Shown in pieces: positions 9,101-42,153 of a stretch of 44,630 nt of DNA. The DNA is from a virus, in the IMG/VR virus record IMGVR_UViG_3300010354_000161, positions 1 to 44,630 of that record; one strand, 5' to 3'. Both the position numbers and the translations under genes were made by a program. A model generated the notes under the pieces. The model was not told the origin of the DNA and did no database searches. It saw only the letters and a list, made by a program, of their open reading frames with translations. Within the stretch, counting starts at the first letter, position 1; each line of letters begins with the position of its first letter.

Positions 9101-12100
9101 GAATTAATTTCCTATGATTATGAAACGTCAAACATTTCTGGAATATCAACTCTTAACCAGTATTATGTTTTAAAAGTAAATAATGATTCGTTTAGATTGT
9201 GTAATGCTGGTGTAGCAGGTACTGATAATCAAAATTATGTTAGACAAAATTATGTTAAATTTTCTTCAACTGGATCTGGGTATCAATACTTTAACTATCC
9301 AAAAATAACCACTGAAATTGTATATTCATCTCAAAATTCAAATTCTATAAGTACTGTTACAACCACTCCCGTAGTTAAAGGATCTATAGTTGAATCTTAC
9401 CTTTATGAAAATGGCAGTAATTATGGATCTAGTGTATTAAACTTAGAAAATACTCCAGATGTTAAAGTTTTAACAGGAGAATTTGCAAAGTTTTCTCCTG
9501 TTATTATTGGAGGAAAAATAACAAAAGTTTTAATTTCTTATTCCGGATTAAATTATTATTCTGTTCCAGAAATAATTGTAGAAAGTAAAAGTGGAATTGG
9601 TGCAATATTACGAGCAACAATATCGAATGGAAAGGTAAATTCGGTTATTGTTATAAATGGTGGGTATGGATATGATCCAAACGATACAACTATTAAAGTA
9701 GTGTCTTCTGGTAAAAACGCTGTATTTTTACCCAAAATAAGATCATTAACATTAAATAATTCATACAAGTATGGAACTCAGACACAAAATTATCGTGATC
9801 CATCTTATGAATTTTTACGCAAAACAAAAGATAATAATTTACAATATGTAGTAACAGGTTACTCTGAACTATTGAAAGTTTTATTTAATGAGAATAGTCA
9901 AAATCATTCTCCTATTATAGGATGGTCATATGATGGAATTCCAATTTATGGTCCTTTCGGATATTCAAATTCAAGTAACCCTGGAGAGGGTGTAAGATTA
10001 ATAAAATCCGGATACTCATTAACTACAGTAGAAAATAGAGTGTCAGTTGATGAATATCCACTCGGATTTTTCATTGATGATTATAAATTTACCAATTCTG
10101 GAGATCTAGATGAATATAATGGTAGATTTTGTAAAACACCAGAATATCCAAATGGAGCTTATGTTTATTTTGCTACGGCAATTTTAAACCCAGAAAATAA
10201 GTATGTCGGATTCTTTCCATATTTCATAGGAAAAAATTATAGAAATAAACCAATTCTTGGAAATATTAAATCTTTATTAGATCAAAATTTCAATTTCAAT
10301 GAATCAAATTTATTGAGAAACACTTTGCCTTATAAATCAGGTCAGAAATACGGAAGAAATGATTTTATTCCATATAATCTCGATCAAATTTCAGAAGTAA
10401 CTAATACAGTTGCCGGACAAATTCAAAATATAAAAATAACGAATTCTGGAAATAATTACAAAGTTGATGATATATTGTATTTTAATAATGATGAAACTTC
10501 TGGATATGGATTAGATTGTACTGTAGAAACGGTAAAAGGTAAAAAAATTGATAAAATAGAATCTAAAATACAAATATATGAGAATGCAAAGTTATTTACA
10601 TATAAAGATAATAATTTTTATGTGAAATATCAACCTAATTATGATATTGTTAACAACTCTTTTGTTACTTTATCAGGATTAACTTCATCCTTTTCACATT
10701 TAAATGGTGAGCATTTAATAACTTTATCAGAATTTGAAACTAAATTAAGCCTCGAAATACCAAATGGTAGTGTAGGTGTAGTTACTGATATTTACCTTCA
10801 AAGTTTTCCAAGACAAGTCTCTATAGGAAGTTCAATAAAAATTATTAATACTAATGGCGATAAGTACTTTACAATATTAAATTACTTTGATGATATTGGT
10901 GCTATAAGAGTAGAGAGATCAAGTTCTGGATTATGTACAGCAAATTCTGCAGTTGTATTTTTATCAGATATAATCACTAATCGTAATGATGAAATTTTAA
11001 GATCTTCTAACGAAAATTATTTAAGATATTTTAATCCAGTAACTTCAGTTGGTGTTGGTACTTGGTCAGGTTCATTTGCAAACAAAACAATATACAACGG
11101 TCTTAAACAACTTACAATTTCAGTACCAACACAGTCAATTTATTTACCAAATCATGGATTTTTTACAGGACAGAAAATTATTTTAAGAAAGTCTAAAACA
11201 AATGCAGGATCTATATTAGTTTCAAAGGAATCAAACAGCACACCATTTTCACTTTTAGGATCTGGTTCAAGTGAGGTAGTATACGCAATAAACAAATCTA
11301 GAGATTATATTGGAATAAGCACTTTAGTTGCCGATTCTCAAAATACAAATGGATTATATTTTAGGTCTGAACCTGATCCCGGAATAATTGATGGTACAGA
11401 TTATCATAAGTACAAATATTCTTTCGAAAGTACGTATGCTGAAACATTATGTAATGTAACGAATGTAAGAAGTACAGTTTCAATTTCAACATTTCACAAT
11501 TTGGAGAAAAATGATTTTATTAGTTTAACAGTTAAACCTCAAAAAAGTGTAGGTATAGGTAGTACTTCATTTGTAAATTTGGAATATATTGATTCCATCA
11601 AGTCAATAGGAATAAACAAGTTAAAATTTACTCCAAATGAGGTTGATTTATCAAACAATAGGTTGAGCATAGTAAATCACAATCTCAGTAGTGGTGATAA
11701 AGTTTTTTATATTTCAACTTCAATAATTGGAGGATTAAGTACAGGTTCTTACTATGTTTACAAAATTGATGTTAATAATATTAACTTGTGCGAATCTTAT
11801 ATCGATTCAACTGCAAATCCTATCAAAATAATAAAATTTACATCTGTTGGTATTGGTACACAAGAGTTGACTTTGGTTCAACCAAGAATAAATGTTGTAA
11901 GAAACAACGACTTAGTTTTTAAAGTTTCTGATGCTTCTTTAAAAGATTATAATTTTAAATTCTATTTTGATGAGAATTTGAAAAAAGAATTTGTGTCTGT
12001 ACCATCATCATCGAATTTATTTTCTATTGTAGGAGTTAATACTATAGGCGTTAGTTCTGATGCTTCTGTAACTTTAAAATATTCAGACTCCTTACCAGAT

Positions 12101-15100
12101 AAACTTTATTATAGTTTAGAAAAAAATAATGAATTGATATCTGTAAAAGATGATGTTAAAAATAGTTCAGAAATTTATTTTATTGATAGTGAATACTCAG
12201 GAACTTATGAAATATTTAATGTAAATAATACCTCATTTGACATTAAATTAAAAAATATACCAGAAGAATCTCTGTATAACTATTCAGATTGTAAAACTTT
12301 AGAGTATTCTACTAGTTCAAAATTTGCTTCGGGTCCAGTTAGTAAAGTTAAAATTATAAATTCAGGTTCAAATTATAAAAACATACCTTATTTTTCAAAA
12401 ACTAATTCCACAAATGGAGTTGGTTTAGATGTAATTCCAGTATCAACTAACATTGGAAAATTAGAAACAATAAGTGTAAAAAGCACTGGTTTTGAATATT
12501 CTGTAGATAGGACTTTATCTCCAAAACCAAGCACGACAAATATAGTAAAAATATCATTTTCAAACTTACTTTTAAATGTAACTGTCAATGACGGTGGAAA
12601 AGGATATGCTTCTGCTCCTAATTTAGTTATTGTAGATTCTGTAACTGGTGAAAAAATAAACAAAGGACTTCTTGTAGCAGAAATGAGTGGATCTTCTAGT
12701 TCTGGAAATAAAAATATATCAAAAGTATCTGTTCAAGCACCTGTTAATGGATTACCCAGCAATCCAGTTACAATAAAATCAGTTAATAATTCAAACGGAA
12801 TTATAATTGACAGAATTGAGTCATCAAGATCTGGAATAATGACATGTTTAATAAGAACTCCTATCTTAGGATTTTCAACAGATCCTTTTTTAACTGGTGA
12901 TGAAGTATTTTTAGAAAATATTGAAATAGTTCCTAATAGTGGTAGGGGATTTAATTCTGAAAATCATGGTTATCAATTTTTTAAAGTAACTAATTATGTT
13001 CAAGGATCTAATCCAGGAAGAATGGTTATTAAAATACCTGAATTATATGGAGATCCTGGAGAAGCAATTTTATTCCAAGTTAATACATTTGCAACGGCAA
13101 TCAAAAAGACAAAATATCCCTCTTTTTCAGTAAAACAAGATTACAGTTTATTTTTACCGAATGAAGATGTTATTTTAATTTCTGGAACAGATAGACTATT
13201 AACAAATTTAGTAGTTGGAAAATCTAATAAAAATTATTTAAAATTATTAGGAGATTATGAATTACAGGTTGGTGATGTAATACAGGGATCTGTAAGTGGT
13301 TATTTAGCAACGATAGAAAAGATAAATTCTTTTAATGGTACATTTTTAGTTGGTGCAGAAAATATAAATTCTTTGGGATGGGATGATGAAGTTGGAAAGT
13401 TAAGTAATAATAATCAATATTTGCCGGATAATGATTATTATCAAAATTTATCATACACAATAAAAACTACAAAGACTTGGAATGAATCTTCTTCAATAGT
13501 AAACTCTTTAGTTCACCCAATAGGAACAAAAAATTTCATCGATACACAAATTGCATCATCATCAACTGGTATTGGATCTACATCAGCATTAAGTTCAAGT
13601 GTAGATATTACTCAGTCATTTATATCAGAATCTAGAGTTGATACGATAAAAGATTTAGATGTTGTTACGGATTTTGATGTTAATTTAAATAGTTCAAGAA
13701 TAATTAGATTTAAAAATTTAAAATTATTAGATTATTTTGAAGCAAAAACTAATAGAGTTTTGCAAATAGATGATATTAGTGGATTATTTTCTAGCACTGA
13801 TGATAATGAAAAAAGATTAGATGGAATTATACTATCTCTCCCTAAAGATCAATCTTTTGGAAGATTTTTATTCCAAGTAAAATCATCAAACAAAGATTTA
13901 ATTCAAGATAATGTAAATGAAATACAATTTACAGAAATAATTTGTCTAAAAGATTCTAGACAAGTATCATTTATTGAAAAAAGTACTTTGACAAATGGGC
14001 ATGATAATGGTGAAGAACCAATTTTCTTTGATTCTAAGATAGCAGAAATAAAACCAGTATATGATGATGCTAAAAATTACTATTTTACATTTTTACCAAA
14101 AGATCCATATGATACAGATTATGAGATTAAAATATTAAGCACATCATTTTTAACAAATAGTGAATCGAACTCTTCGATTGATTTTGATTCAACTACAGTT
14201 TTCAATACTGTAGACTTGGTTCTTCCTCAAGAGTTTAAAAATATTTTATCACTTGATTCTTCAAAATATTCATCTTTCTGTTCACAGATACAGGTTCTCA
14301 ATAGAAAGACTTTTGAAATGAATTATGTTGAAATTTATGCATCTTATGATGGCAACAATATTTCTTATGCAAATTACTATTTTGATTCTAAAGGTAACGG
14401 AGATCTTTCTCCTACGGGACAAAGTTATGGATTTATAGGATCTTTCGGATTTAGTATCACTAATTCTGGATTACTTAAATTGGATTATTTAAATGAAACT
14501 ACTCTTGATAACATAACAGTTAGTGCAAAAACAATTTGTTTTAATAACAACTCTTCTGTAGGAATTGCTAGTACTTATAGATTCAAAACAAAAAATCAAA
14601 AAGATGGATCTGAAAGAACAGCAATAATTAGTTCTGGAACTACTTCAGTTTCTACATCTTCAACAATTTTCTCTTACAATAGTCAGTTATTTTCAAGTAT
14701 AAAATCTATAGTTAAGGTAAGTATTGGAAATACTACTTGCGTATCACAACTCATGATAATACATGATAATTTAAATTCATTTATTACAGAATATCCTGTT
14801 CTTTTCTCAGGTGATAAAAATATTATTGGTGTAGGAACTTTTAGTTCATCATTTACTCAAGATAAATTTTCAGTAATATTTAAACCATATGATAATTTTG
14901 AAAATGAAAACATTTCGATAAGATATTATAATGAAATATTCTACAGTTTCTTAGATGAAGTAAATTTTCCACAAAATCTCTCAATTAATCCACTATTGGA
15001 AAAAGTTAATGTTGCAAAACATTTTGGATTAAACTCTAAAGATAAAAATAGATTAAATTTTAATCTGAAATATAGAGAAACTTCAATATTTGCAAAAACA

Positions 15101-18100
15101 TTTGATCCTGGAGATTCGGATATATTTAATTTAGCAACAGGTGTTTTTACAATTCCAAATCATTTCTTTAGTACTGGAGAAAAATTAATTTATACTCCAG
15201 GATCAACTTTTATTGGCGTTGGCCAAAGTTCGATGGGAATCACACCAGGATCGATGACAGATACTGGAGTTACAACAAGTAGATTACCATCAAGTGTTTA
15301 TGCAATTAAAGTAGATAATGATAAGTTTAAAATAGCTCTTACAAAAGCAAATGCTGAAGGATCCACTTCAATTACCTTTACAGATTTGGGAGAAGGTAAT
15401 GCTCATATGTTTGAGATGTTTAAGAAAAATGAAAAATCTTTAATTACTATTAATAATTTGATTCAATACCCATTATCTTATACTGGTATTGCACATTCTT
15501 TATTTGGAAACGGTGGACAAATTGGAATTGGAAACTCATTCTTCACGTTGAGTGGAATTAGTTCAATAAAACCAACAGATTTATTAAAAATTGATAACGA
15601 ATATATGAAAGTTCTTAATGTTGGTATAGGTACAAGTAACTCTGGACCAATAACATTTACATATGGTGATAAAAATATTGTTGAAGTTGAAAGAGGTTTT
15701 GTGGGAACTTCTGCAACTTCACACTTGGATGATTCTGAAGTAAAAGTATTTACTGGATCTTATAATATATCTAAAGATCAAATATATTTTACTCATCCCC
15801 CAAGAGGAAATATATTTGATTTAGTTACTAATGATGAAAGAAATTTGAAGAGGGCAAGAGCATCTTTTAGCGGAAGAGTATTTTTAAGAAAAGATTATTC
15901 TTCGAATGTTATCTTTGACGACATTTCTAGGCAATTTACTGGTGTTGGGCAAACTTTTATATTGAAATCACAGGGAATAAACACTGTAGGATTGGGAACT
16001 ACTTCAGGAAATGGTATATTATTGATAAATGGAATTTATCAAACTCCACTTACTCAAAATATTACAAATCATAATTTCCAAATTAAACAAAATACAACAT
16101 TAGGTATTAGTAGTGTAGTATTCAGTGGTATAAGAGATCTTGATACTAATGAAATTAATATTTCAGAATCTGACATAAACCAAAATCAATTACCGAGAGG
16201 TGGAATTATCGTTTCTTTAGGGTCAACTTCTGGTCTTGGTTACGCTCCTTTAGTTGGAGCAAAAGTTAAAGCTGTGTTAGATAACTCAAATGGTTCAATT
16301 ATAAGTGTAGTTGGTATTGCAACAACCGGAAACCCAATAGCGTTTACAACAGTATCTTATGATAATCAAAGTGGAATTTTGGATATTTTTTCAACATCAA
16401 TAGGGGAACTGTCTGGGGTAAATCAAGTAAAATTAGTTGGACTTGGATTTACTTGTCCATCAAATCCCGGAATAGTATCATATTTTCCAAGTCACAACGA
16501 TTCTCTCAACATTATTGGAATCGGTACTACTTCATTCTCGGTTAGAGTGGGAACTAGTACTCTTCCACACTATTATGTTGGATATGGAACAATATATCCT
16601 TGGTATGAGAATTTAAATTTTGGATCTGGATATAGAAATCCAGTTTCTATAGCAGTAACCGAAAAAAATCATGTAGGAAGTGCCGCAACAATAACAGCAA
16701 CTGTCGGTGCTGGAGGAACTTTAAGTTTTAATATTATTGGAATGGGTACAGGGTACTCAAATCCAACGATTGCAATTTCACCACCATCATATGAAAATTT
16801 AAATATAATAGGTGTATCTAGACTTGGAATAGGACAAACTACAGATACTGGAATTGGTTTATTATTAAATGTTGAAGTTGGTGCAAGCAGAACAACTGGA
16901 ATAGGTTCTACTTATTTTGAAGTTTCTTCATTTAAAGTGACAAGATCTGGGTATAATTTTAGACGGGGTGATATTTTTAAACCCGTTGGTCTTGTAACTG
17001 CACAAGGATTAGATAGTCCTTTGGAAGAATTTAGACTTACTGTTTTAGAAACATATAATGATAATTTTTCAGCTTGGCAATTTGGTGAAATGAATTTAAT
17101 AGATTCTGTTAAAAAATATCAAGATGGAAATAGAACTAATTTTCCACTGTATTACAACAATGAACTATTGAGTTTCCAAACTAATGTAGATGATCCAGAC
17201 TCTCAAGTTATAGATTTTGATTCTTTACTTGTCATCTTTATAAACGGAATACTTCAAGAACCAAAAATTGCATATGAATTTGTTGGTGGTTCTGCAGTAA
17301 GATTTTTAACTGCACCAAAGAAAGATGATAATGTAGAAATTTATTTTTACGTTGGGACTAGAGGATCAGACTCTGAACAATTTGATGTTAATCCTGTTAT
17401 TCAAGTTGGAGATACACTTCAAGTGTACAGTAACAATTCAAATTTACCAACTACAATTACACAAAATCCAAGAACTGTTTTCGATATTTTATCATCATCA
17501 TTATTGGAAACTAATTTGTATTTTGATCAAGGAATTGATTCTAGTAATTTGAAACCAGTTTATTGGACAAAACAAAAAGAAGATCTTATTATAAATGAAA
17601 CAATATATTCAAAATCTAGAAATTCTTTAGAACCTCAAATTTATCCAACATCAAAAATTATAAAAAATGTAACATCTTCGGATAATGAAATATTTGTTGA
17701 TAGTTTAGGAATATTTAATTATGAAGAAGAAATTCCAAATGAAACATTTAGTTTAATTATTATACCTTCAGAACAATCAGTTCAAGTTGGTATAGTGACT
17801 GCAATTGTTTCTGCTTCAGGCACAATACAATCTTTAAATATTGAAAATTCTGGAAGTGGATATGGAAATTACACTCCTAGTATCAAAATATCCAACCCAT
17901 ATACTGGAATTACAACATTTAAAATTGACAATAATACAATTGGAATAGGATCTACAGCAACTGCACAACTGACAGTTTCTAGTGGATCAATAAGTAATGT
18001 TGTAATTGTTAATCCAGGTTTAGGATACACAAATACAAATATTCCTCAGGTTATTGTTGAAGAACCACCATTTTCGTTTGAAAATTGTTCAGGAGCAAAT

Positions 18101-18613
18101 GTTGCTATAGGTTTTGATGGAATAATTGTGGGTATTGGTACTACAGTTGGAGTTGGTACAGATTTGGCCATGAAATTTAATTTAGAAAAATTTAGTGGTA
18201 ATTATTCAGACTTATCTGTTGGATATCCAATTTATGTGTTTGATACTAATGTTGGATCAGGGATTACATCCGTAGATTCTAATGATTCTCAAATTGTAGC
18301 AATCTCAACCTCTTTTGTAGATAATATCTACTATGTTCACAATATTGACACCAATACAGGTACAATAATATGTAATATATTGTCAAATAGTACTAATGTT
18401 ATTGGAATTGCAACTACAGGGAACACTGCAAATCCTGTTGGAAAATTTTCTTGGGGAAAAATTGGTGGAATTGTTAGAGGAACAAATCCAGTTTCAATTG
18501 GAGTTAGTGGATACACTATAAATTCTGGATTATCAACATATCCATCAATTCAAAGAAGAGGATATGGATTGAGAAAAAGTGGCGCACTTAAAATAGATTT
18601 GTCTCCAGCATGA
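6152..18613 (+). CDS. Giant baseplate/tail structural protein at the gp7 position (4153 aa), with YHYH domain and internal repeats
   Basis: This single frame takes 28% of the window. It lies where T4 has gp7 (1032 residues), between gp6 and gp8, so it is probably a wedge protein or gp7 functional counterpart; I cannot show gp7 homology by eye. The N-terminal about 200 residues (FLRQYYISQES, later FRILFNALYGIEP) look like a conserved attachment domain. Near residues 1235-1365 there is a YHYH-type domain (HSPIIGWSYDGIPIYGPFGY at 1252-1271, DLDEYNGRF, FFPYFIGKNY), although the name-giving YHYH is replaced by YVYF. At least ten copies of a G-x-G-Y beta repeat (from about 750, 942, 1124, 1164, 1424, 2063, 2142, 3526, 3893, 3949) and five or more NHG-x-x-x-G modules (about 848, 974, 1664, 1840, 3002) fill the rest. 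Codon use is very AT-rich. Confidence 0.85.
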   Translation: MVQSNFESKVKIQDIIDNQIPEFILAENPKFSEFLRQYYISQESQGGNIDLIENLVEYLKLDNLTPDVISGSSSLTQNVSINDTTIYVNNTDGFPNYYGLIQIDSEIITYKEKLNDRFTGCIRGFSGINSYDTELVFSSTQKSTHLSGTKVTNLSVLFLQKFYEKIKFTFLPGLEKVDLHKSLNINNFIKNSSTFYRAKGSKESFRILFNALYGIEPTVVDLETFLFKSSGSKYKRRKELIFESLDTNTNPLALTGYQVVKTNDSSVFGSVSEAEIFTRNNKSYYKFYIFVGYDDSNSESSGEFLITPSTKVVEKISSTDNAKVITVDSTVGFPKSGSIFYNQIEIFYTDKSVNQFFGCYTKGKTYVDLNINKTSILHSNDTYFGYENGDKTKKVVLRLLGTINNIVVNDSDSEYIFSEGDKLYIKELGNLITSGIENNSQVVANSLIYNTSSRYQLNKILNSESSITLSEVDKSSLKVGDYVEFLERNTEIIANRRNSENQIVQTFDNQKVESISFNAGQSGWEIGFDFDLLLLDPLKEYDIRRKLKIASSSSTSSQLKYNNITCDVTNLYSENNENFYVASNSLPSYVIEKNIFSYNALSVVNFNNIEQKYESIEFSNVISLLSGDKVFYSYTNSPIPGLTEGEYYIKVSSNKKEIKLYRSRSFIAIDKFLYLGAIPNNSTHTFTLLQQKTEDGKIYPQKLFKKIKLSVSESNDIPDPIGTETIGILANGVEIYSYVSNDKVFYGPLESVKILNSGEQYDVINPPKLEFSYGNAKLQPVVQGYVDKVYVDPQEFNIDTPIEVKITGGNGKGAVLEPIISLKSREIFFDARELSNGGGLSLSSETITFLTKHNLVDGQKIIYDINSIGNQKIGLGTFQGSDDIVNSYLENNSVFYTKVINDETIQIYPTFSDYQAGINTVGFTTFGNLGVHKFKTEPKKILESIKVINGGEGFTNRKLIVKPSGISTYNHTVNFINHGFLSGELISYDYETSNISGISTLNQYYVLKVNNDSFRLCNAGVAGTDNQNYVRQNYVKFSSTGSGYQYFNYPKITTEIVYSSQNSNSISTVTTTPVVKGSIVESYLYENGSNYGSSVLNLENTPDVKVLTGEFAKFSPVIIGGKITKVLISYSGLNYYSVPEIIVESKSGIGAILRATISNGKVNSVIVINGGYGYDPNDTTIKVVSSGKNAVFLPKIRSLTLNNSYKYGTQTQNYRDPSYEFLRKTKDNNLQYVVTGYSELLKVLFNENSQNHSPIIGWSYDGIPIYGPFGYSNSSNPGEGVRLIKSGYSLTTVENRVSVDEYPLGFFIDDYKFTNSGDLDEYNGRFCKTPEYPNGAYVYFATAILNPENKYVGFFPYFIGKNYRNKPILGNIKSLLDQNFNFNESNLLRNTLPYKSGQKYGRNDFIPYNLDQISEVTNTVAGQIQNIKITNSGNNYKVDDILYFNNDETSGYGLDCTVETVKGKKIDKIESKIQIYENAKLFTYKDNNFYVKYQPNYDIVNNSFVTLSGLTSSFSHLNGEHLITLSEFETKLSLEIPNGSVGVVTDIYLQSFPRQVSIGSSIKIINTNGDKYFTILNYFDDIGAIRVERSSSGLCTANSAVVFLSDIITNRNDEILRSSNENYLRYFNPVTSVGVGTWSGSFANKTIYNGLKQLTISVPTQSIYLPNHGFFTGQKIILRKSKTNAGSILVSKESNSTPFSLLGSGSSEVVYAINKSRDYIGISTLVADSQNTNGLYFRSEPDPGIIDGTDYHKYKYSFESTYAETLCNVTNVRSTVSISTFHNLEKNDFISLTVKPQKSVGIGSTSFVNLEYIDSIKSIGINKLKFTPNEVDLSNNRLSIVNHNLSSGDKVFYISTSIIGGLSTGSYYVYKIDVNNINLCESYIDSTANPIKIIKFTSVGIGTQELTLVQPRINVVRNNDLVFKVSDASLKDYNFKFYFDENLKKEFVSVPSSSNLFSIVGVNTIGVSSDASVTLKYSDSLPDKLYYSLEKNNELISVKDDVKNSSEIYFIDSEYSGTYEIFNVNNTSFDIKLKNIPEESLYNYSDCKTLEYSTSSKFASGPVSKVKIINSGSNYKNIPYFSKTNSTNGVGLDVIPVSTNIGKLETISVKSTGFEYSVDRTLSPKPSTTNIVKISFSNLLLNVTVNDGGKGYASAPNLVIVDSVTGEKINKGLLVAEMSGSSSSGNKNISKVSVQAPVNGLPSNPVTIKSVNNSNGIIIDRIESSRSGIMTCLIRTPILGFSTDPFLTGDEVFLENIEIVPNSGRGFNSENHGYQFFKVTNYVQGSNPGRMVIKIPELYGDPGEAILFQVNTFATAIKKTKYPSFSVKQDYSLFLPNEDVILISGTDRLLTNLVVGKSNKNYLKLLGDYELQVGDVIQGSVSGYLATIEKINSFNGTFLVGAENINSLGWDDEVGKLSNNNQYLPDNDYYQNLSYTIKTTKTWNESSSIVNSLVHPIGTKNFIDTQIASSSTGIGSTSALSSSVDITQSFISESRVDTIKDLDVVTDFDVNLNSSRIIRFKNLKLLDYFEAKTNRVLQIDDISGLFSSTDDNEKRLDGIILSLPKDQSFGRFLFQVKSSNKDLIQDNVNEIQFTEIICLKDSRQVSFIEKSTLTNGHDNGEEPIFFDSKIAEIKPVYDDAKNYYFTFLPKDPYDTDYEIKILSTSFLTNSESNSSIDFDSTTVFNTVDLVLPQEFKNILSLDSSKYSSFCSQIQVLNRKTFEMNYVEIYASYDGNNISYANYYFDSKGNGDLSPTGQSYGFIGSFGFSITNSGLLKLDYLNETTLDNITVSAKTICFNNNSSVGIASTYRFKTKNQKDGSERTAIISSGTTSVSTSSTIFSYNSQLFSSIKSIVKVSIGNTTCVSQLMIIHDNLNSFITEYPVLFSGDKNIIGVGTFSSSFTQDKFSVIFKPYDNFENENISIRYYNEIFYSFLDEVNFPQNLSINPLLEKVNVAKHFGLNSKDKNRLNFNLKYRETSIFAKTFDPGDSDIFNLATGVFTIPNHFFSTGEKLIYTPGSTFIGVGQSSMGITPGSMTDTGVTTSRLPSSVYAIKVDNDKFKIALTKANAEGSTSITFTDLGEGNAHMFEMFKKNEKSLITINNLIQYPLSYTGIAHSLFGNGGQIGIGNSFFTLSGISSIKPTDLLKIDNEYMKVLNVGIGTSNSGPITFTYGDKNIVEVERGFVGTSATSHLDDSEVKVFTGSYNISKDQIYFTHPPRGNIFDLVTNDERNLKRARASFSGRVFLRKDYSSNVIFDDISRQFTGVGQTFILKSQGINTVGLGTTSGNGILLINGIYQTPLTQNITNHNFQIKQNTTLGISSVVFSGIRDLDTNEINISESDINQNQLPRGGIIVSLGSTSGLGYAPLVGAKVKAVLDNSNGSIISVVGIATTGNPIAFTTVSYDNQSGILDIFSTSIGELSGVNQVKLVGLGFTCPSNPGIVSYFPSHNDSLNIIGIGTTSFSVRVGTSTLPHYYVGYGTIYPWYENLNFGSGYRNPVSIAVTEKNHVGSAATITATVGAGGTLSFNIIGMGTGYSNPTIAISPPSYENLNIIGVSRLGIGQTTDTGIGLLLNVEVGASRTTGIGSTYFEVSSFKVTRSGYNFRRGDIFKPVGLVTAQGLDSPLEEFRLTVLETYNDNFSAWQFGEMNLIDSVKKYQDGNRTNFPLYYNNELLSFQTNVDDPDSQVIDFDSLLVIFINGILQEPKIAYEFVGGSAVRFLTAPKKDDNVEIYFYVGTRGSDSEQFDVNPVIQVGDTLQVYSNNSNLPTTITQNPRTVFDILSSSLLETNLYFDQGIDSSNLKPVYWTKQKEDLIINETIYSKSRNSLEPQIYPTSKIIKNVTSSDNEIFVDSLGIFNYEEEIPNETFSLIIIPSEQSVQVGIVTAIVSASGTIQSLNIENSGSGYGNYTPSIKISNPYTGITTFKIDNNTIGIGSTATAQLTVSSGSISNVVIVNPGLGYTNTNIPQVIVEEPPFSFENCSGANVAIGFDGIIVGIGTTVGVGTDLAMKFNLEKFSGNYSDLSVGYPIYVFDTNVGSGITSVDSNDSQIVAISTSFVDNIYYVHNIDTNTGTIICNILSNSTNVIGIATTGNTANPVGKFSWGKIGGIVRGTNPVSIGVSGYTINSGLSTYPSIQRRGYGLRKSGALKIDLSPA
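9857..10246 (+). other. YHYH-type domain inside the giant protein
   Basis: Codons for about residues 1236-1365 of the 4153-residue protein. The core HSPIIGWSYDGIPIYGP fits the YHYH family, whose members begin with an H-x-P-I-x-G-x-A/S-x-D-G-x-P-I-Y-G pattern, followed by L-D-E-x-N-G-x and a late F-P-Y. YHYH domains occur in secreted and surface proteins and in cyanophage tail proteins; their activity is not established to my knowledge. Confidence 0.7.
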
Positions 18614-18639: not shown

Positions 18640-20229
18640 ATGCCAGCTTTTGTTACAGATCAATTTAGAATTTTAAACACTAATAATTTTGTCAATTCTA
18701 TAGATTCTGGTACTGATAACTACTACGTTTTTGTTGGTTTAACAAATCCAGTACGAAATGGATTTGGGAGGAATATAAATTGGGATTATCCAGATGCTCC
18801 AGATCCAAACTTAGTAGTATTACCAAATCCAACTGATAATTTTGAGTATTTACCTCATTATGGAGATACTATAATATATGGGAAAAAAATAACATCTCAA
18901 AATGTTAAAAGATGTATAAGAAGAATTGATTGGACTCAAGGTGTAAAATATGACATGTATCGCCATGATTATAGCGTAACTAATAGATCTAAAGTTACAG
19001 ACAGATCTAGGTTATATGATACAAATTATTATGTAATGAATAGTCAGTATCAAGTGTACATATGCATATCAAATGGGTCGAGTGGAATTAGTTCTACAGG
19101 TAATCAATCTCAAGATGAACCTTTGTTTATAGACTTAGAACCATCTAAGGCAGGAACTAGTGGAGATGGATATTTGTGGAAATATTTATTTACTGTTTCA
19201 CCAACAGATATTATAAAATTTGATTCTGTTGAATTTATACCATTACCAAATAATTGGCAAACTTCTACTTTGCCACAAATAGTTTCAGTTAGAGAAAATG
19301 GAGACTCTACTCTTAACAATAATCAAATTAAATTTGTTTATATTGATAATGGTGGTGGTAGTTATAATACTGGAGAAGTTAAAATTTTAGGTGATGGGAC
19401 AGGAGCAAGAGTTTATGTTGAAACTAATGAAGATAATCAAATAGTAAAAACAACTGTAACTTCTGGTGGTAGTGGATATACTTATGGAATAGTTGATCTA
19501 GGTCCATTACAGATTAGTGATAGTATACAATTTCCAGCAAAACTTATTCCAATTATACCACCTTCTAGAGGACATGGATATGATTTATATAAAGAATTAG
19601 GTGCTGATAGAGTTTTAATTTACACTAGGTTTGACGATTCTTCTAAAGATTTTCCTGTAGATACCAAATTTGCTCAGATAGGAATATTAAAGAACCCAAA
19701 AAACTTTGTTTCAGATAGTCTTTATACTGCAGATAGATTTTCCGGTCTATATTCTTTGAAAATAAATTTATCAGGATCTACACTACCAACAATCGGTGAA
19801 AGAATAGAACAAATTTTTTCAAATGGAAGCAAAGCAGTTGGATATGTATCTTCTTATGACAGGATAACAAAAGTATTAAAATATTTTAAAGACAGATCAT
19901 TACACTATCAACCGCTTGGTCCAAATTATGATCAAACAGATTATGTTGGAATATCATCGTCTGCTGATGCAACAGTTAATTTCAGTACTAGTGGAGGTCA
20001 AATTAAAGGTACTGAGAGTGGATTTATATGCACTATAGATAGTACATTTAGCAATTCGGTAGTAACTGTAGAAAACAAAACTATCAACTTAGATGTTACT
20101 TTTACTTCGGGAATTGCAAAACCTGAAATAAATAAAACATCGGGAGATATTATTTACATTGATAATAGGCCTTTAGTAGAAAGAAACTCTAGGCAAAAAG
20201 AAGATATTAAAATTATTCTAGAATTCTAA
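18640..20229 (+). CDS. gp8: Baseplate wedge protein gp8
   Basis: Order and sequence point to gp8: the N-terminus with FVGLTNP at residues 32-38, RCIRRIDWTQGVKYDMYRHD at 91-110, then SRLYDTNYYVMN and GYLWKYLFTV near 178-185, are typical of the gp8 family in T4-like phages. T4 gp8 has 334 residues; the extra length here comes largely from residues 230-290, which hold two copies of the G-x-G-Y beta repeat (YIDNGGGSY at 234-242, VTSGGSGY at 273-280), and from a C-terminal extension. In T4 gp8 dimers sit in the peripheral part of each wedge and bind gp10. The stop is 3 bases before the next gene. Confidence 0.88.
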   Translation: MPAFVTDQFRILNTNNFVNSIDSGTDNYYVFVGLTNPVRNGFGRNINWDYPDAPDPNLVVLPNPTDNFEYLPHYGDTIIYGKKITSQNVKRCIRRIDWTQGVKYDMYRHDYSVTNRSKVTDRSRLYDTNYYVMNSQYQVYICISNGSSGISSTGNQSQDEPLFIDLEPSKAGTSGDGYLWKYLFTVSPTDIIKFDSVEFIPLPNNWQTSTLPQIVSVRENGDSTLNNNQIKFVYIDNGGGSYNTGEVKILGDGTGARVYVETNEDNQIVKTTVTSGGSGYTYGIVDLGPLQISDSIQFPAKLIPIIPPSRGHGYDLYKELGADRVLIYTRFDDSSKDFPVDTKFAQIGILKNPKNFVSDSLYTADRFSGLYSLKINLSGSTLPTIGERIEQIFSNGSKAVGYVSSYDRITKVLKYFKDRSLHYQPLGPNYDQTDYVGISSSADATVNFSTSGGQIKGTESGFICTIDSTFSNSVVTVENKTINLDVTFTSGIAKPEINKTSGDIIYIDNRPLVERNSRQKEDIKIILEF

Positions 20230-20232: not shown

Positions 20233-20997
20233 ATGGCACAAAAAACTAATCTCAACGTTAATCCATATTTTGACGATTTTAATTCTGATAAGAATTTTTA
20301 CAAAGTTTTGTTCAACCCAGCAAAACCTGTACAAACTAGAGAATTAAATACAATTCAATCTATCTTGCAAGATCAGATAGAAAATTTTGGAAGCCATATT
20401 TTTAAAGAAGGTTCTGTAGTTATACCTGGTGGAATAACTTATGATTCGGAATATTCTGCAGTAAAATTAAACTTTAATTCATTTGGAATTGATATATCTA
20501 CTTACATAAACAAATATCTTGGACAAACTATTAGAGGACAAGTTTCGGGAATAACTGCAACTATATCTCAAATTGTTTTACCAAATGGTAATGATATTGA
20601 AAATATTACTCTGTACGTTAAATACAGAGATTCTGATTCAAATTACAGTAAAAAAACATTTTTGGATGGAGAATCATTACTTTCTACAGAATCAATATCT
20701 TATGGAATCAATAATACTATAATTCCAGAAAATACACCATTTGCATCTTTAATATCTGAAAATGCAACTTCTTTAGGATCTTGCGTTTCTGTAAATGATG
20801 GTATTTATTTTGTTAGAGGAACTTTTGTAAAAGTTAAAAAAGAAACTTTAATTTTAGACTATTATACAAATATTTCTTCTTATAGAATAGGATTTAAAGT
20901 ATCTGAACAAATTGTAACTACAAAAGATGATGAAAGTTTATTTGATAATGCTAAAGGTTTTACTAATTATGCATCACCAGGAGCTGATAGATTATAA
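20233..20997 (+). CDS. DUF4815-type virion protein, N-terminal fragment ended by an in-frame TAA
   Basis: The 254 residues from ATG 20233 carry the typical DUF4815 opening (NVNPYFDDFNSDKNFYKVLF, then PAKPVQTRELNTIQSILQDQ) and end at GADRL followed by TAA (20995-20997). The same frame is then open without interruption through 21283 to 27735, and the residues right after the stop (ISLSLTKKLLSD) continue the family pattern. A single base change, for example from AAA (Lys), would explain the stop. The whole gene would be 2500 residues. The stop may be a true mutation, a sequencing error or a functional split. The TAA lies inside a perfect TATAAATA motif. Related full-length proteins are common virion proteins of T4-like cyanophages. 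Confidence 0.75.
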   Translation: MAQKTNLNVNPYFDDFNSDKNFYKVLFNPAKPVQTRELNTIQSILQDQIENFGSHIFKEGSVVIPGGITYDSEYSAVKLNFNSFGIDISTYINKYLGQTIRGQVSGITATISQIVLPNGNDIENITLYVKYRDSDSNYSKKTFLDGESLLSTESISYGINNTIIPENTPFASLISENATSLGSCVSVNDGIYFVRGTFVKVKKETLILDYYTNISSYRIGFKVSEQIVTTKDDESLFDNAKGFTNYASPGADRL

Positions 20998-21000
20998 ATA
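20993..21000 (+). promoter_or_regulatory. TATAAATA motif containing the interrupting stop codon
   Basis: A perfect late-promoter octamer formed exactly at the in-frame TAA of the split DUF4815 gene. It would start transcription near 21007, about 276 bases before the first in-frame ATG at 21283. In DNA this AT-rich several chance copies are expected in 44 kb, so the coincidence is suggestive only. Confidence 0.3.
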
Positions 21001-21282
21001 AGTCTAAGTTTAACAAAAAAACTTTTATCTGATACTGTTGATGTTGACTTTATTGAATTACTTAGAGTTGAAAATGGATTTATTAAAAAATTAGAAAATA
21101 AAACTGACTATAATTTACTTAAAGATTATATTGCTCAACGAACATATGATGAATCAGGAAATTATACAGTTTCTCCATTTAAAGTTTCTGTCAATAATTC
21201 ATTAAATAATTTACTCGGAAATAATGGAATTTATTTTGAAGATGAATTAACTTCATCAGGCAATAAACCAAATGATGATTTA

Positions 21283-24200
21283 ATGTCTGTAACTATAAGT
21301 CCGGGAAAAGCATATGTTAAAGGATATGATGTTGATAAAACTGGTACTACAATTTTAGATGTAAATAAACCGAGAGACAAACAAACGGTAACTAATGTAT
21401 TAGTTCCCTTTAAAATGGGAAATATTTTAAGAATTAATAATCTTTATGGTACACCAACAAATAGATCCACAGTATATTTTTATAGTCAAAGAAGAAACGG
21501 TGCAACAAGTTCCGCAAATGGTGTTGAGATAGGATCAGCAAGAGTTTACTTATGTAAACTAACTGATGCCGCATATGAGGGAGCAAAAACAAAATGGGAC
21601 TTATATCTTTATGATATCCAATTTTATTCATACTTAACTATTAATAATTCTTTAACTTCAACAGAGTTACCAGTTTCTTCCCAAGTTGTTGGTAATAGTA
21701 GCGGCGCGGTTGGATATGTTGTAAGTGCCGGAACAAGTGGAAATGTAATAAAACTAAGGCAAATATCGGGAAATTTTTTACAAAATGAAAGTATATCAAT
21801 TAATGGTACAAATTTATTATCAAGATCAATTTTAAACGTAAAAAAATATAATTCATCAGATATTAAATCAGTATTTTCTTCAGGAAGTCCTGCGTTTTTA
21901 GCAGACTCTATTTTAGATTCGTTTATTCCTGTTGGATTTAGTGCTCAAGATCAAATTACAATTAGTTCCAATGGAACGACAACTTCTAGTAAAGGATTTA
22001 GTGGACTAAGTACGGACACAATAGTAAAATATTCTAGACCAGGATTTAGTACAGAAACATATAATGTCATCAGTAGTGTTAATCCAACTTCATTTACATT
22101 AAGTGGAATATCAACAGTTTCTGACGTAAATGATGGTGCAGTAACTAATTCTCAAATTCAATCTCGTTTTGTAATCGGAAAATCCAACATAATTGAGCAA
22201 AACTCATCATATCTGTATTCAGTATTACCAAATAATAATATATCTGATATAGATTTGACTGGATCGCAATTAAAATTTTCAGCACAATCAACAGAATCTG
22301 TTGTAATATCTGGCGGAACTTTATCCTTAAATACTTCCAACTTCACTTTACCTGGAAATTCTGGAACTGTTAAATTTGACACCTTTGATGCTGAAAAGTA
22401 TTCAATTCATTACAATGATGGTTCTATACAATCATTGACCGATGATCAAGTTACTTTTAACTCCGAATATAGTCAAGTTACTTTTAAAGGATTGACTAAT
22501 GGAAAAACCACGAGTTTAATTAACGCCACATTTACAAAAACTGGAATACAAAGTAAAACAAAAGTTCATAAAAAAAGTACAATTGTTAATGTAAATTTAT
22601 CAAAGTATTCAAAATCAGGCACTGGAATAAGTACATCAGTAAATGATGGTTTGGATTATAATCAATTTTATGGACTGAGAGTACAAGACAATGAAATTTG
22701 TTTAAGATATCCAGATGTAATAAGAGTTTTAGCAGTCTATGAATCACTGGACACTTCTTCACCATCTTTTGATAAATTAAACTTTTCGTCAATATATAAT
22801 ATTTCAGTAAATTCTGTAGTTGGTGAAGATGTAATAGGAAAAACTAGCAAATCAATTGCAAGAATTGTTTATAAAGATCCATCTTATCCAAATAGTATTG
22901 AAATCGTTTATCTAAACAACAACAGATTTGAATCTGGAGAAGAAATATCCTTCAAACAATCCAATATAAAAGCCGAACTTTCATCAATATCTTTTGGCAG
23001 ATACAAAAATATAACAAATGCTTTTAAACTTGATAAGGGACAAAGAAACGAATATTATGATTACTCCAGAATAGTAAGAAATCAAAATGAACCAGAACCT
23101 AATAAAAAGTTATCTATAGTATTTGATTATTATGAAGTTTCTGACACTGATAGCGGAGATTTATTTAGTATTGCAAGTTATGGTCAAGAAAATTATTCAA
23201 AAGACATACCTAGTATTGGATTTTTAAATATTAGGGCATCAGATACTTTAGATTTTAGACCAAGAGTTTCTTATTTTAGTGGATCATCATCATCACCTTT
23301 TGACTTTTCATCAAGAAATTTTGGACAAACTCCAAAAGTTATAATTACACCAAATGAATCTAGTTTAGTTAAGTATAATTTTTATCTCGGAAGAATAGAT
23401 AAAGTTTGTATCGATAGTTATGGTGGCATAGTTGTAGAAAAAGGTGTTTCTTCAACCAATCCAAAAGAACCAATAAAATTTGGAGATACTCTCGAAATTG
23501 CAACTATTTCATTACCACCCTATCTTTATGATAGTTCTGATGCAGAAATAACCCTTATTGATAATAGAAGATATACAATGAGGGATATTGGAAAAATAGA
23601 AGATAGAGTTGAAAATTTAGAATTAATTACTTCACTTTCTTTATTAGAATTAAATACACAGTCTTTACAAATAAAAGACGCTGATGGTTTAGATAGGTTT
23701 AAAACTGGATTTTTCGCAGATTCATTTAAAGATAATGACTTTATCGATCTTGTAAATTCTTCGGTTGAAACAATTTCTGAAATAACATCTAAGGAATTAA
23801 CTCCGTTAATTTCAAAAAATTCATTGAAAAATGAAATTATACCTTTAATACCACAATCTGATAATCAGTTAGATTTAAAACAAAATTTTGAATTATTGGA
23901 CACTAGAGTTAAAAAAACTGGTCAGGTAGTAACTTTAAATTATGAAAGTGTAGATTGGATAACTCAACCTTTAGCAACTGTACAAAATGATGGATCTCCT
24001 AGAGTTGAAAATGTAAACCCATTCCATGTAGTGCAATATGTTGGTGATATTAGATTGCATCCATTTTCAGATAGTTGGGTTAGAACAGTTTCTCTTGCAG
24101 ATAGAACTATTGTTTTAGAAAATAAAATTAACTTAGAAAGTAAAGTAACTACTGAAAGACTTACTTTAACAACTCCAAATAATACAACTGGAATTGGGCA

Positions 24201-27200
24201 AGGTGACTTAGGAACTGCTAAAATTAGAGATACTTGGACTGACTTGAGTTTATCTGACTCATTTATTGAAGGAAACCCAGAAGTATTTGTAAGTAAATCG
24301 GAAAATACATCTGAAGCTTCTACAGAACGAACTTTTGTAGATAGTCAATTTGATCGTTTTATGAGGTCAAGAAATACTGAATTTTCGGCGGCAAATTTAT
24401 CACCTTTCACTAGATATTATCACTTTTTAGATGGTCATTCTAATATTGATTTTACTCCAAAATTAATTGAAGTTTCAACTGATTCTTCATTACAAAATTT
24501 AGGAACCAAAGGATCTTTTCAAATTGGAGAAACTGTAATTGGTACTTTTGGCGGTGAACAAATTATTAAATTTAGATTATCTCAACCAAATCATAAATTT
24601 GGAAAATTTGATAATCCGACTACTACTTATAATGCAAATCCATATTTAAAATCTGAAACTTTACCATCCGGTTATAGTGAATCATCATCCGTTTTAAATA
24701 TAGATACATTTTCACTTGCAGATGAAGTTCAAGGAACATACTTCGGATATTTAGTTAAAGGTACTTTATTAGTTGGTGAATCTAGTGGAGCATCTGCTTA
24801 TGTAAAAGACTTGAGATTGATCACCGATAACTATGGTGATTTAATTGGTACATTTTTTATAAGAGATCCAAATTCATCACCAGTACCATTAATAAGAATA
24901 CCAACTGGAAATAAAACTTTTAAATTATCATCTAGCGTATCAAATGAAAATGGATTGGTGAATAATTCAGAAGTCTCTACTGCGGAAACTTCTTACCTAT
25001 CAGAAGGAACAGTACAAACTTACCAAAATATTATAAGACAAAACAAAATTACTGCTACCTTAACAACTACAAATAATATAAGAATAAGAACATTAAATGC
25101 AGTTAGAAATGAAAATATTTCTACCGCACAACTTCCTCCGCAACAAGTATTTAATATAACAAATATAACTCAACAAGTAGTTAGAAGACAAGCACATGCA
25201 GATCCTTTAGCTCAAACTTTCCTCGTTGGTTCTAGTCGTGGATTAAATTCATTTAATGATGATGCTAATGGAGCATTTTTAACGGCAGTTGATTTATTCT
25301 TTGCATCAAAAGATCCTGGAAATGCTCCAGTAACAGTTCAAATTAGAACAACTGAACTTGGAATTCCTACTCTGTCAATAATTGGCGATCCAGTTACTCT
25401 TAGACCAGATGATATTAAAGTTTCAGATGATGGTTCAGTCCCAACTAGAGTAACATTTCCATATCCAATCTGTTTACCACCAGGATTAGAGTATGCAATA
25501 GTCATATTGGCACCTCAAAGCACTCAATATAATTTATGGTGCGCTAGAATGGGTGAAAAAGTTATTAGTACTCTTGGACTGCCAGATGTTGAGTCTTCAA
25601 GATATTCACAACAATTTGCAATAGGTAGTTTATTCAAATCACAAAATGGTTCAATATGGTCGGAAGATCAATATGAAGATTTGAAATTTAAGTTATATAA
25701 AGCAAAATTTGTTGAAACTAATGGTGTTGTTTATTTCCACAATCCATCATTAGATAAAAATAATCAATATGTTAGAAAATTACAACCAAATCCAATTACT
25801 ACACTACCAAGAAAGTTAAAAGTAGGAATAACAACAGTATATGATAGCACTCAAGTAAATACAATTTTAGTAGCAGGTAGAAAAATAACTGAGACTACAA
25901 AAGGTCATATTTATGGAAATATTGTTAGTACTGGTTGTTCAGTGTCTGCAGTGGCAATCAATACTGGTGGTAGAAACTATCCAGTTGGAGTGTCTACAGT
26001 AAATACGTTTAATTTAACTGGAAATGGTTCTGGATTGCAATTAAAAGTTACGGTTGGTTCGAGTGGAAATATTACTGAAATTAATGAAATTAAATCTTTC
26101 GGATCTGGATATGCAATTGGAGATGTTGTTGGTATAGTTACATCTACAACTAGTGGTGATTCCAATACACCAAAGGGACAAGGATGTTCAATAACCATCA
26201 CTGGAAACAATAATGCAATAGATACTTTATATTTGACTAATGTTCAAGCACAATCTTTTACAAATGGATCTGAGTTAAGATATTATAATAACGCAGGAAA
26301 TGCAGTTACTTTAGGATCTACGACTATTACTTCTTCACAAACTTATGGAAGTTTTTCTGACGGAAATTATTTTAAAGTAAATCATTTTAATCATGGAATG
26401 TATGCATCAAATAATCTTGTTGAGGTAAGCGGAGTAATACCAAATACAGTAACAGTATCACTACCTTCTCAGTTAGATAGAACTGGATCAATTATGAATA
26501 TATTGAGTGCAGATTCTACATATTTCCAAACATTTGAAGGATTTGCCGTCAGTCCTTCAAATCCTGGATATATATTAGTTAATAATGAAATAATTAAATA
26601 TACTCAAGTAAATTCAACATCTTTAGAAGGATTAGAACGTGGTATAGATGGAACAGTATCAATAGATCACCCACAAAATTCTATTATCAGAAAATATGAA
26701 TTAAATGGAGTTTCTTTAAGAAGGATCAATAAAATCCACGATGTGTCTGATACTGGTATAGATTTAGATGAATACTATTTACAAATTGACAGAGATGGTA
26801 GTCCTGGAAATTTTGGATTAGATCGTTCAACTGATCTTTCAACTGAGATAAGTGGACAAAAATTACCATTTTTATCTTTTAATTCAGAATCATCTGTTGG
26901 TGGAAATGCAGTTTATGCATCAGAAAATATTGTATTTGATACTGTAATTCCATATTTTGATGCAGTAAATCTTGGGTTACCAAATCAAATAAGTACTCAA
27001 ATAAGAACAGTAACTGGAACAAGTGCTGGTGGTAACGAGGTATCATTTAGTGATCTTGGTTATGAAGATGTACTAATTAATCAACCAAATAAATTAAATA
27101 ATTTAAGAATGATTGCATCTAAGGTAAATTCTGATGAATACTTAGATTCTATGCCAAGAAATAAATCTTTTATTACGGCATTATCAATTTCATCAAATAA

Positions 27201-27735
27201 TTATAATTTATCACCGATGATATTTTTAGATAATACATTTACTGAATTTAGGTGTGCCAGATTAAATAGTCCAAAAATAAATTATATCTCTGATAATAGA
27301 ATAAATGGATTATCAAATGATCCACATGCAGCAATTTATGTTTCCAAAACTATTAGGTTAACTCAACCATCAAATAGTTTAAAAGTAATCTTGTCAGCAT
27401 ATAGACACTCTTCTAGTGATTTTAGAGTTTTATATTCATTAGTAAAAGCAGAGTCTAATGAAATTTCTCCATCTTTTACTTTATTCCCCGGATATGATAA
27501 TTTAACTACAGATAATAATTTGGACGGTTATTTGGACGTAATTAATGAATCTTTAAATAGTGGTCTTCCAGACAAGATTACTTCAAGTAGTTTGGATAAT
27601 CAATTTTTGGAGCATCAATATACTGCACCAAATGTTGGACCATTTATAGGATTTAAAATTAAAATTGTCATGTCTGGAACCAGACAAGATAAGTATCCAA
27701 GATTTAAAGACATTAGAGCAATAGCATTACTATGA
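21283..27735 (+). CDS. DUF4815-type virion protein, C-terminal part (2150 aa from first ATG)
   Basis: This is the same frame as 20233-20997, open from base 20998. The first ATG after the stop is at 21283, with no Shine-Dalgarno sequence, so 95 conserved-looking codons (20998-21282) would be lost if translation restarts there. Visible parts: KISPGKAY-like strand at the start (TISPGKAYVKGYDVDKTGTT), a long beta-rich middle, RLHPFSDSW near 24050-24080, ADPLAQTFLV near 25198, one G-x-G-Y repeat unit (KSFGSGYAIGD, about 26094), an NHG module (about 26390) and an LERGIDGT module (about 26630). It is most likely a baseplate or tail-fibre-like virion protein. The stop overlaps the next start (ATGATGA). 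Confidence 0.8.
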   Translation: MSVTISPGKAYVKGYDVDKTGTTILDVNKPRDKQTVTNVLVPFKMGNILRINNLYGTPTNRSTVYFYSQRRNGATSSANGVEIGSARVYLCKLTDAAYEGAKTKWDLYLYDIQFYSYLTINNSLTSTELPVSSQVVGNSSGAVGYVVSAGTSGNVIKLRQISGNFLQNESISINGTNLLSRSILNVKKYNSSDIKSVFSSGSPAFLADSILDSFIPVGFSAQDQITISSNGTTTSSKGFSGLSTDTIVKYSRPGFSTETYNVISSVNPTSFTLSGISTVSDVNDGAVTNSQIQSRFVIGKSNIIEQNSSYLYSVLPNNNISDIDLTGSQLKFSAQSTESVVISGGTLSLNTSNFTLPGNSGTVKFDTFDAEKYSIHYNDGSIQSLTDDQVTFNSEYSQVTFKGLTNGKTTSLINATFTKTGIQSKTKVHKKSTIVNVNLSKYSKSGTGISTSVNDGLDYNQFYGLRVQDNEICLRYPDVIRVLAVYESLDTSSPSFDKLNFSSIYNISVNSVVGEDVIGKTSKSIARIVYKDPSYPNSIEIVYLNNNRFESGEEISFKQSNIKAELSSISFGRYKNITNAFKLDKGQRNEYYDYSRIVRNQNEPEPNKKLSIVFDYYEVSDTDSGDLFSIASYGQENYSKDIPSIGFLNIRASDTLDFRPRVSYFSGSSSSPFDFSSRNFGQTPKVIITPNESSLVKYNFYLGRIDKVCIDSYGGIVVEKGVSSTNPKEPIKFGDTLEIATISLPPYLYDSSDAEITLIDNRRYTMRDIGKIEDRVENLELITSLSLLELNTQSLQIKDADGLDRFKTGFFADSFKDNDFIDLVNSSVETISEITSKELTPLISKNSLKNEIIPLIPQSDNQLDLKQNFELLDTRVKKTGQVVTLNYESVDWITQPLATVQNDGSPRVENVNPFHVVQYVGDIRLHPFSDSWVRTVSLADRTIVLENKINLESKVTTERLTLTTPNNTTGIGQGDLGTAKIRDTWTDLSLSDSFIEGNPEVFVSKSENTSEASTERTFVDSQFDRFMRSRNTEFSAANLSPFTRYYHFLDGHSNIDFTPKLIEVSTDSSLQNLGTKGSFQIGETVIGTFGGEQIIKFRLSQPNHKFGKFDNPTTTYNANPYLKSETLPSGYSESSSVLNIDTFSLADEVQGTYFGYLVKGTLLVGESSGASAYVKDLRLITDNYGDLIGTFFIRDPNSSPVPLIRIPTGNKTFKLSSSVSNENGLVNNSEVSTAETSYLSEGTVQTYQNIIRQNKITATLTTTNNIRIRTLNAVRNENISTAQLPPQQVFNITNITQQVVRRQAHADPLAQTFLVGSSRGLNSFNDDANGAFLTAVDLFFASKDPGNAPVTVQIRTTELGIPTLSIIGDPVTLRPDDIKVSDDGSVPTRVTFPYPICLPPGLEYAIVILAPQSTQYNLWCARMGEKVISTLGLPDVESSRYSQQFAIGSLFKSQNGSIWSEDQYEDLKFKLYKAKFVETNGVVYFHNPSLDKNNQYVRKLQPNPITTLPRKLKVGITTVYDSTQVNTILVAGRKITETTKGHIYGNIVSTGCSVSAVAINTGGRNYPVGVSTVNTFNLTGNGSGLQLKVTVGSSGNITEINEIKSFGSGYAIGDVVGIVTSTTSGDSNTPKGQGCSITITGNNNAIDTLYLTNVQAQSFTNGSELRYYNNAGNAVTLGSTTITSSQTYGSFSDGNYFKVNHFNHGMYASNNLVEVSGVIPNTVTVSLPSQLDRTGSIMNILSADSTYFQTFEGFAVSPSNPGYILVNNEIIKYTQVNSTSLEGLERGIDGTVSIDHPQNSIIRKYELNGVSLRRINKIHDVSDTGIDLDEYYLQIDRDGSPGNFGLDRSTDLSTEISGQKLPFLSFNSESSVGGNAVYASENIVFDTVIPYFDAVNLGLPNQISTQIRTVTGTSAGGNEVSFSDLGYEDVLINQPNKLNNLRMIASKVNSDEYLDSMPRNKSFITALSISSNNYNLSPMIFLDNTFTEFRCARLNSPKINYISDNRINGLSNDPHAAIYVSKTIRLTQPSNSLKVILSAYRHSSSDFRVLYSLVKAESNEISPSFTLFPGYDNLTTDNNLDGYLDVINESLNSGLPDKITSSSLDNQFLEHQYTAPNVGPFIGFKIKIVMSGTRQDKYPRFKDIRAIALL

Positions 27736-40467: not shown

Positions 40468-42153
40468 ATGGCAAAACTTTTTGGATTTTCTATTGAAAGT
40501 AATCAAGATAAACCTAAATCTTTAGTGTCCCCCGTTCCTCCGTCAAACGAGGACGGGGTTGATCATTATATTGCAAGTGGTTTTTATGGTCAGTATGTAG
40601 ACATTGAAGGTGTTTATAGAACAGAATATGATTTACTTAAAAGATATAGAGAAATGGCATTACACCCAGAGTGTGATAATGCCATAGAAGATATTGTAAA
40701 TGAAGCATTAGTAAGTGATTTATACGATTCGCCAGTTGAAATAGAACTTTCAAATTTAAACGCAAGTGATAAGTTAAAAGATATCATGCGTAAAGAATTT
40801 AAATCTATCAAAGAAATGATGGATTTTGATAGAAAATGTCACGAAATTTTTAGAAATTGGTATATTGATGGCAGACTATATTATTTAAAAGTAATCGATG
40901 TTAAAAATCCTGGAGCAGGTATACAGGAAATAAGATACATCGATCCAATGAAGATGAAACATATTAAGCAGGAAAAGAAAAGTAAAAAAAATCAAATTGC
41001 TAGATTTCCTAATGGTCAAGAGGATATTAATTTTCCAGAGATAGAAGAATACTATGTATATACACCATCTTTAAATTATGCGTCATCATCATATAGTACA
41101 AAACCCCAAAAAGGAATTAAGATAACTAAAGATTCAATTTCATATTGTACTTCAGGTTTAGTAGATAGAAATAAAGGAACTATTTTATCATACTTACATA
41201 AAGCAATCAAGGCTCTCAATCAACTTCGCATGATTGAAGATTCTCTTGTAATTTATAGATTATCAAGAGCACCAGAAAGAAGAATTTTTTACATTGATGT
41301 TGGCAATCTTCCAAAAGTAAAGGCTGAACAATATCTTAAAGATGTAATGAGTCGCTATCGTAACAAACTGGTTTATGATGCAAATACTGGTGAAGTTCGC
41401 GATGATCGTAAATTCATGAGTATGCTTGAAGACTTTTGGCTTCCAAGAAGAGAAGGTGGTAGAGGAACTGAAATTACTACTCTTCCAGGAGGACAAAATC
41501 TTGGAGAATTATCCGATGTTCAATACTTTCAGAAAAAACTTTATCGTGCATTAAATGTTCCAGAATCTAGAATTACTGGCGATACTGGATTTAATCTTGG
41601 TAGATCTTCAGAAATTTTACGCGATGAATTAAAGTTTGCAAAATTTGTAGGAAGACTTAGAAAAAGATTTGCGAGCATGTTTAATGATATGCTTCGTACA
41701 CAGTTATTACTTAAAAATATTGTTTCCCCAGAAGATTGGGAAAAAATGGAAGATCATATTCAATATGATTTCTTATATGATAATCAATTTGCCGAGCTCA
41801 AAGAATCTGAGATGTTAACAAATAGGTTAACACTTGCAACCACTATTGAACCATATATTGGTAAATATTACTCTACTGAATATGTAAGAAAGAAAGTTTT
41901 ACGTCAAACTGATTCTGAAATTATTGAAATTGATCTTCAAATTCAAGATGAAATTCAAAAGGGTATTCTTCCAGATCCTAATGCTCCAGTGGATGAAAAC
42001 GGAAATCCAATTCCACAAGATGGTGGAGTTCCTCCAGAACAAGCAATGGTTGGAGCAGAAGAAGCACCACTTGGAGAAGTTCCAGAAGAACCTGGAATTG
42101 ATGCATCGATGGTACAACCACCCGAAATTAAACCAAAAGGTGGAAAAATATAA
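40468..42153 (+). CDS. gp20: Portal vertex protein gp20
   Basis: 561 residues (T4 gp20 has 524). Recognisable parts are DHYIASGFYGQYVDIEGVYRTE near residues 32-53, YREMALHPECDNAIEDIVNEAL near 60-81, VIYRLSRAPERRIFYIDVGNLPK near 261-283 and FNLGRSSEILRDELKFAKFV near 372-391. The stretch around 41277-41305 is where widely used cyanophage g20 survey primers bind, in agreement with a cyanophage source. The gp20 dodecamer forms the unique head vertex, starts prohead assembly and is the channel for gp17. The C-terminal 55 residues are Pro/Glu-rich and look disordered. A G+C-rich hairpin lies within codons 21-31. Confidence 0.96.
   Translation: MAKLFGFSIESNQDKPKSLVSPVPPSNEDGVDHYIASGFYGQYVDIEGVYRTEYDLLKRYREMALHPECDNAIEDIVNEALVSDLYDSPVEIELSNLNASDKLKDIMRKEFKSIKEMMDFDRKCHEIFRNWYIDGRLYYLKVIDVKNPGAGIQEIRYIDPMKMKHIKQEKKSKKNQIARFPNGQEDINFPEIEEYYVYTPSLNYASSSYSTKPQKGIKITKDSISYCTSGLVDRNKGTILSYLHKAIKALNQLRMIEDSLVIYRLSRAPERRIFYIDVGNLPKVKAEQYLKDVMSRYRNKLVYDANTGEVRDDRKFMSMLEDFWLPRREGGRGTEITTLPGGQNLGELSDVQYFQKKLYRALNVPESRITGDTGFNLGRSSEILRDELKFAKFVGRLRKRFASMFNDMLRTQLLLKNIVSPEDWEKMEDHIQYDFLYDNQFAELKESEMLTNRLTLATTIEPYIGKYYSTEYVRKKVLRQTDSEIIEIDLQIQDEIQKGILPDPNAPVDENGNPIPQDGGVPPEQAMVGAEEAPLGEVPEEPGIDASMVQPPEIKPKGGKI
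40530..40558 (+). other. G+C-rich hairpin inside the start of gp20
   Basis: CCCCGTTCCTC (40530-40540) pairs with GAGGACGGGG (40549-40558), ten base pairs with one bulged T and an 8-base loop. It is the most G+C-rich spot in the structural region and uses codons (CCC, CCG, GAG, GAC, GGG) that neighbouring sequence rarely uses. Confidence 0.6.

Follow-up and report, generated by a model that had tools for sequence, protein, structure and literature searches.

A late promoter of the form NATAAATA/TATAAATA has been described for cyanophages and T4, with NATAAATA in S-PM2 (PMC2984593). VrlC, which replaces T4 gp7, is an integral part of the two-layered baseplate according to PMC7029224, so its loss should be costly, and the DUF4815/VrlC baseplate gene is probably essential.

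The stretch analysed here (the window), an IMG/VR contig of 44,630 bases, probably covers part of an uncultivated virus. Its genes make up the structural region of a relative of the T4-like cyanophages. This cyanophage-like virus is known from metagenome DNA alone; among isolates, Synechococcus phage S-SRM01 was the closest that we found. The window carries genes for a gp6-like wedge protein, a 4,153-residue protein, gp8, DUF4815/VrlC, neck proteins, terminase, sheath, portal and scaffold. The gp8-like gene (18640-20229) lies directly before the DUF4815/VrlC gene and the neck genes follow, the placement expected of this family, after gp8 and among baseplate and neck genes. The 4,153-residue open frame (6152-18613), which has a YHYH-domain match, is situated between the gp6-like and gp8 genes; at the matching position S-SRM01 has an 11.7 kb gene annotated as a baseplate wedge initiator.

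The in-frame stop in the DUF4815/VrlC gene

The giant DUF4815/VrlC baseplate gene occupies 20233-27735 on the plus strand, spans 2,500 codons and matches both PF16075 and phrog_358. Read from the ATG at 20233, the frame meets a TAA at 20995-20997 (plus strand) and is then open up to the stop at 27733-27735; this single internal stop is what an earlier note on this DNA had described. Nearly all relatives have one uninterrupted DUF4815/VrlC frame, whereas the window frame is broken at this codon. The N-terminal open frame (20233-20997, plus strand) encodes 254 residues and ends just after PGADR-L, in which PGADR is near-invariant. The frame that begins at the first in-frame start after the stop (21283-27735, plus strand) encodes 2,150 residues and lacks the conserved residues 255-350.

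The identification of a DUF4815-type virion gene, also made in the earlier note, was borne out by PF16075 scores of 83.4 bits for the N-terminal piece and 108.8 bits for the C-terminal piece, against a curated cut-off of 30. Furthermore, the family sequence runs unbroken across the stop, as had been claimed: in phrog_358 (2056 columns) the N-terminal piece covers columns 1-249 and the C-terminal piece columns 251-2054, indicating that a single codon is affected. The sole match in a PDB search was a distant DUF4815 chain, 9euf.

Alignment of the frame with relatives, a check that the earlier note had proposed, covered 248 distinct relative neighbourhoods, one of which has a gap at the stop site. 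The other 247 all have a sense codon there (216 Lys, 17 Gln, 9 Arg, 4 Ser and 1 Gly), so that the stop was found in 0 of 247 and is private to the window contig. Both of the closest contigs, at 89% nucleotide identity, encode Lys. The relatives compared include no other copies of the window phage's own population, and an exact-pattern search of IMG/VR around the site for that population returned no match. An IMG/VR-wide scan with the site motif gave no matches with TAA or TAG, whereas at least 120 contigs matched with AAA or AAG. No in-frame stops were detected in the ~495,000 aligned codons of the relatives, some contigs being counted twice, and no relatives were found in bacterial and archaeal genome contigs.

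Apart from the stop, the gene is conserved, and dN/dS is low on both sides: against the closest relative, L086, it is 0.115 for the gene as a whole, 0.08 upstream of the stop and 0.16 across residues 256-351. In the first 500 residues, none of the 72 near-invariant columns shows a departure from the consensus in the window. When changes were polarised, relaxation of constraint at residues 255-350 in the window lineage was not significant (p = 0.44). Residues 1-350 carry more replacements in the window lineage than in L086 (p = 0.03); we do not take this excess as a signal, because replacements in the window lineage are not more frequent there than in the rest of the same gene (p = 0.30). Comparison with the genes of the closest relatives revealed no other broken genes in the window, the remaining flags being antisense or minor frames. 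Since the gene is not decaying, any stop must be very recent or not real.

The late-promoter motif at 20993

The TAA lies inside an exact copy of TATAAATA at 20993-21000 (plus strand), which the earlier note had pointed out and read as a late-promoter motif. We examined this motif in 806 genes (2.47 Mb) of related contigs, the window included. Inside coding DNA TATAAATA was seen 21 times, compared with 248 expected from codon shuffles (~12-fold depletion), and its reverse complement was seen 16 times inside genes, compared with 344 expected (~20-fold). No other arrangement of five A and three T that we tested is as strongly depleted in genes as TATAAATA or as frequent upstream of them, where TATAAATA copies mostly stand 20-29 nt ahead of the ATG. 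Both its depletion in genes and its placement before the ATG agree with the late promoter of PMC2984593. Taken as a class, TATAAATA copies are true late-promoter motifs in these phages, with the strongest enrichment ~25 nt before the ATG. The late-promoter reading in the earlier note is supported to this extent, and stray late promoters are strongly avoided within genes of this phage group.

Of 1,635 gene ends, 30 have their stop within TATAAATA, and in the majority of these cases an ATG follows after 15-60 nt. Such an overlap of stop and promoter motif is a normal, compact way of joining genes in this group. The window itself provides an example at 42149-42156 (plus strand), an ordinary late promoter that holds the TAA of the portal gene (42151-42153). 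This arrangement is like that at 20993, but at the portal-gene junction the ATG of the next gene follows at 42181.

The window has five copies of TATAAATA, all on the plus strand. Shuffling gives a mean of 8.4, and the motif is thus not enriched in total number. The caution in the earlier note that chance copies are to be expected accordingly holds for the raw count, but in this phage group the placement of the motif is far from random. Four of the five copies sit just upstream of genes (18614, 37131, 42149 and 43312), and only the copy at 20993 lies deep within a gene, a striking position given the depletion of the motif inside genes of the group. The 20993 copy has the exact sequence of the T4-like late promoter, which elsewhere in the window precedes structural genes. 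However, such promoters have a start 20-30 nt on, and this copy is inside a gene with no start at that spacing: the first in-frame start (ATG, GTG or TTG) after the stop is the ATG at 21283, 290 nt past the motif, and out-of-frame starts within 120 nt of 20993 yield products of at most 18 residues. The motif is also not conserved, being present within 60 nt of the site in 0 of 248 relative neighbourhoods.

A lysine-type codon stands at the site in most relatives, and one base change suffices to turn it into TAA and to spell the motif, in agreement with the proposal that a single substitution made both. Approximately 1,260 single-base changes could make a stop in the gene, of which 2-3 also spell TATAAATA; a coincidence of this kind has a probability of about 0.2-0.3%, not corrected for hindsight.

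Origin of the stop

The earlier note had left three options: a real lesion, a sequencing error, or a functional split of the gene. The privacy of the stop (0 of 247) and the lack of a start at late-promoter spacing favour a lesion or an error over a functional split, which has neither a start codon nor conservation on its side. The stop is very probably a private single-base nonsense lesion, which most likely stems from an error in sequencing or in the consensus, or from a rare variant unlike the viable phage. One base change in a lysine-type codon would have produced TAA in an otherwise intact, conserved VrlC/DUF4815 gene, and the overlap with TATAAATA would then follow from the flanking codons, the one before ending in TA and the one after being ATA. 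In the working phage the product is most likely a single polypeptide of about 2,500 residues. We infer that the phage does not tolerate the lesion, which would be either an error or unfit.

The mutation might instead be real and fixed, with full-length protein obtained by readthrough, by a suppressor tRNA or by complementation in mixed infection. The intact remainder of the gene, free of further decay, would suit such a tolerated change. No tRNA genes were found in the 44,630-base window; the contig is a fragment, and suppressor tRNA genes could lie elsewhere in the genome. Against a fixed mutation, the stop is seen in no relative, and TAA is normally the least read-through of the stops. Furthermore, TAA is not generally reassigned, since genes of the window, the portal gene among them, and of related contigs use it as a stop, and in the latter it is the commonest. 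We consider a tolerated, fixed mutation improbable.

Still less probable is a nascent gene fission, in which a functional 254-residue protein would end at the stop and the C-terminal part would be transcribed from the late promoter embedded there. The best argument for this functional reading is the chance overlap of only about 0.2-0.3% between stop and motif, which keeps its probability from being near zero. The motif is, moreover, a late promoter in this phage group, and a stop within it is a normal junction, as at the window portal gene. What tells against a split is the downstream sequence: with no ATG at promoter spacing, a C-terminal product would have to begin at the in-frame start 290 nt on and would lose residues 255-350, a region whose constraint is not significantly relaxed in the window lineage. 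The option of a separately transcribed C-terminal piece, raised in the earlier note, is accordingly disfavoured, as initiation at 21283 would discard ~95 conserved residues. The cut also adjoins the near-invariant PGADR, and none of the 248 relative neighbourhoods has the motif near this site. That one substitution gave stop and late promoter together as a first step of fission, by analogy with ordinary junctions and with one naturally split relative, would thus be a highly unlikely history.

Recoding of TAA is ruled out by the genes in the window and in relatives that end in TAA, and general decay or poor consensus quality by the absence of a second lesion and of any departure at the 72 conserved columns.

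Should the stop prove real and functional, it would show that one base change supplying both a stop and a promoter can split a large viral gene. If a private lesion is the correct reading, as we favour, the locus is a warning that a single base in a metagenome contig can halve a conserved 2,500-residue virion protein in annotation. Two side results are of use in themselves, the avoidance of the late-promoter motif inside genes and the true DUF4815 splits elsewhere.

Comparison with split and intact DUF4815 genes

Natural splits of DUF4815, in which two open frames encode the one protein, were found in a few contigs (L084, L307, L192, L257, L292 and L299), mostly near residues 1170-1650, later than the window's break at residue 255. 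L084 and L307 are split near residue 1170; in each, NATAAATA precedes the second ATG by about 25 nt, and the junctions (L084:10841-10883 and L307:4979-5001) each consist of two adjacent genes with a late-promoter motif. L307 shows the stop-in-promoter arrangement, as the TAA of its first half overlaps the motif, AATAAATA, and an ATG follows about 25 nt on. The junction DNA of L084 closely resembles the promoter in front of gp8 in that contig (L084:5634-5661), as though it were a copy. In L192 and L292 the split is farther on, again with NATAAATA before the second start, and in L257 and L299, also split farther on, an extra open frame lies between the halves: a separate small gene in L257 and an ORF of about 290 residues in L299. 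Fission of DUF4815 is thus possible in the family, and every known case shows either a complete gene start or a gene placed between the halves. The window has neither a start at the right spacing nor an intervening gene. The break in the DUF4815 gene of a further contig, L038, looks like a small frame error rather than a natural split.

Another broken gene is that of S-SKS1 (HQ633071), in which the DUF4815 frame is interrupted about 10-30 codons downstream of the position of the window's stop. Unlike the window's stop, the S-SKS1 lesion consists of two one-base frame changes in A runs (L002:3780-3860), which are probably sequencing errors. The whole 7-kb DUF4815 gene is unannotated in the S-SKS1 record.

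In S-SRM01, VrlC (QPX48161.1) is a full-length homologue of the window protein, with 66% identity to the N-terminal piece and 51% to the rest. It is encoded by one 7.3-kb gene of similar size that likewise comes after gp8 and, unlike the window gene, runs without an internal stop.
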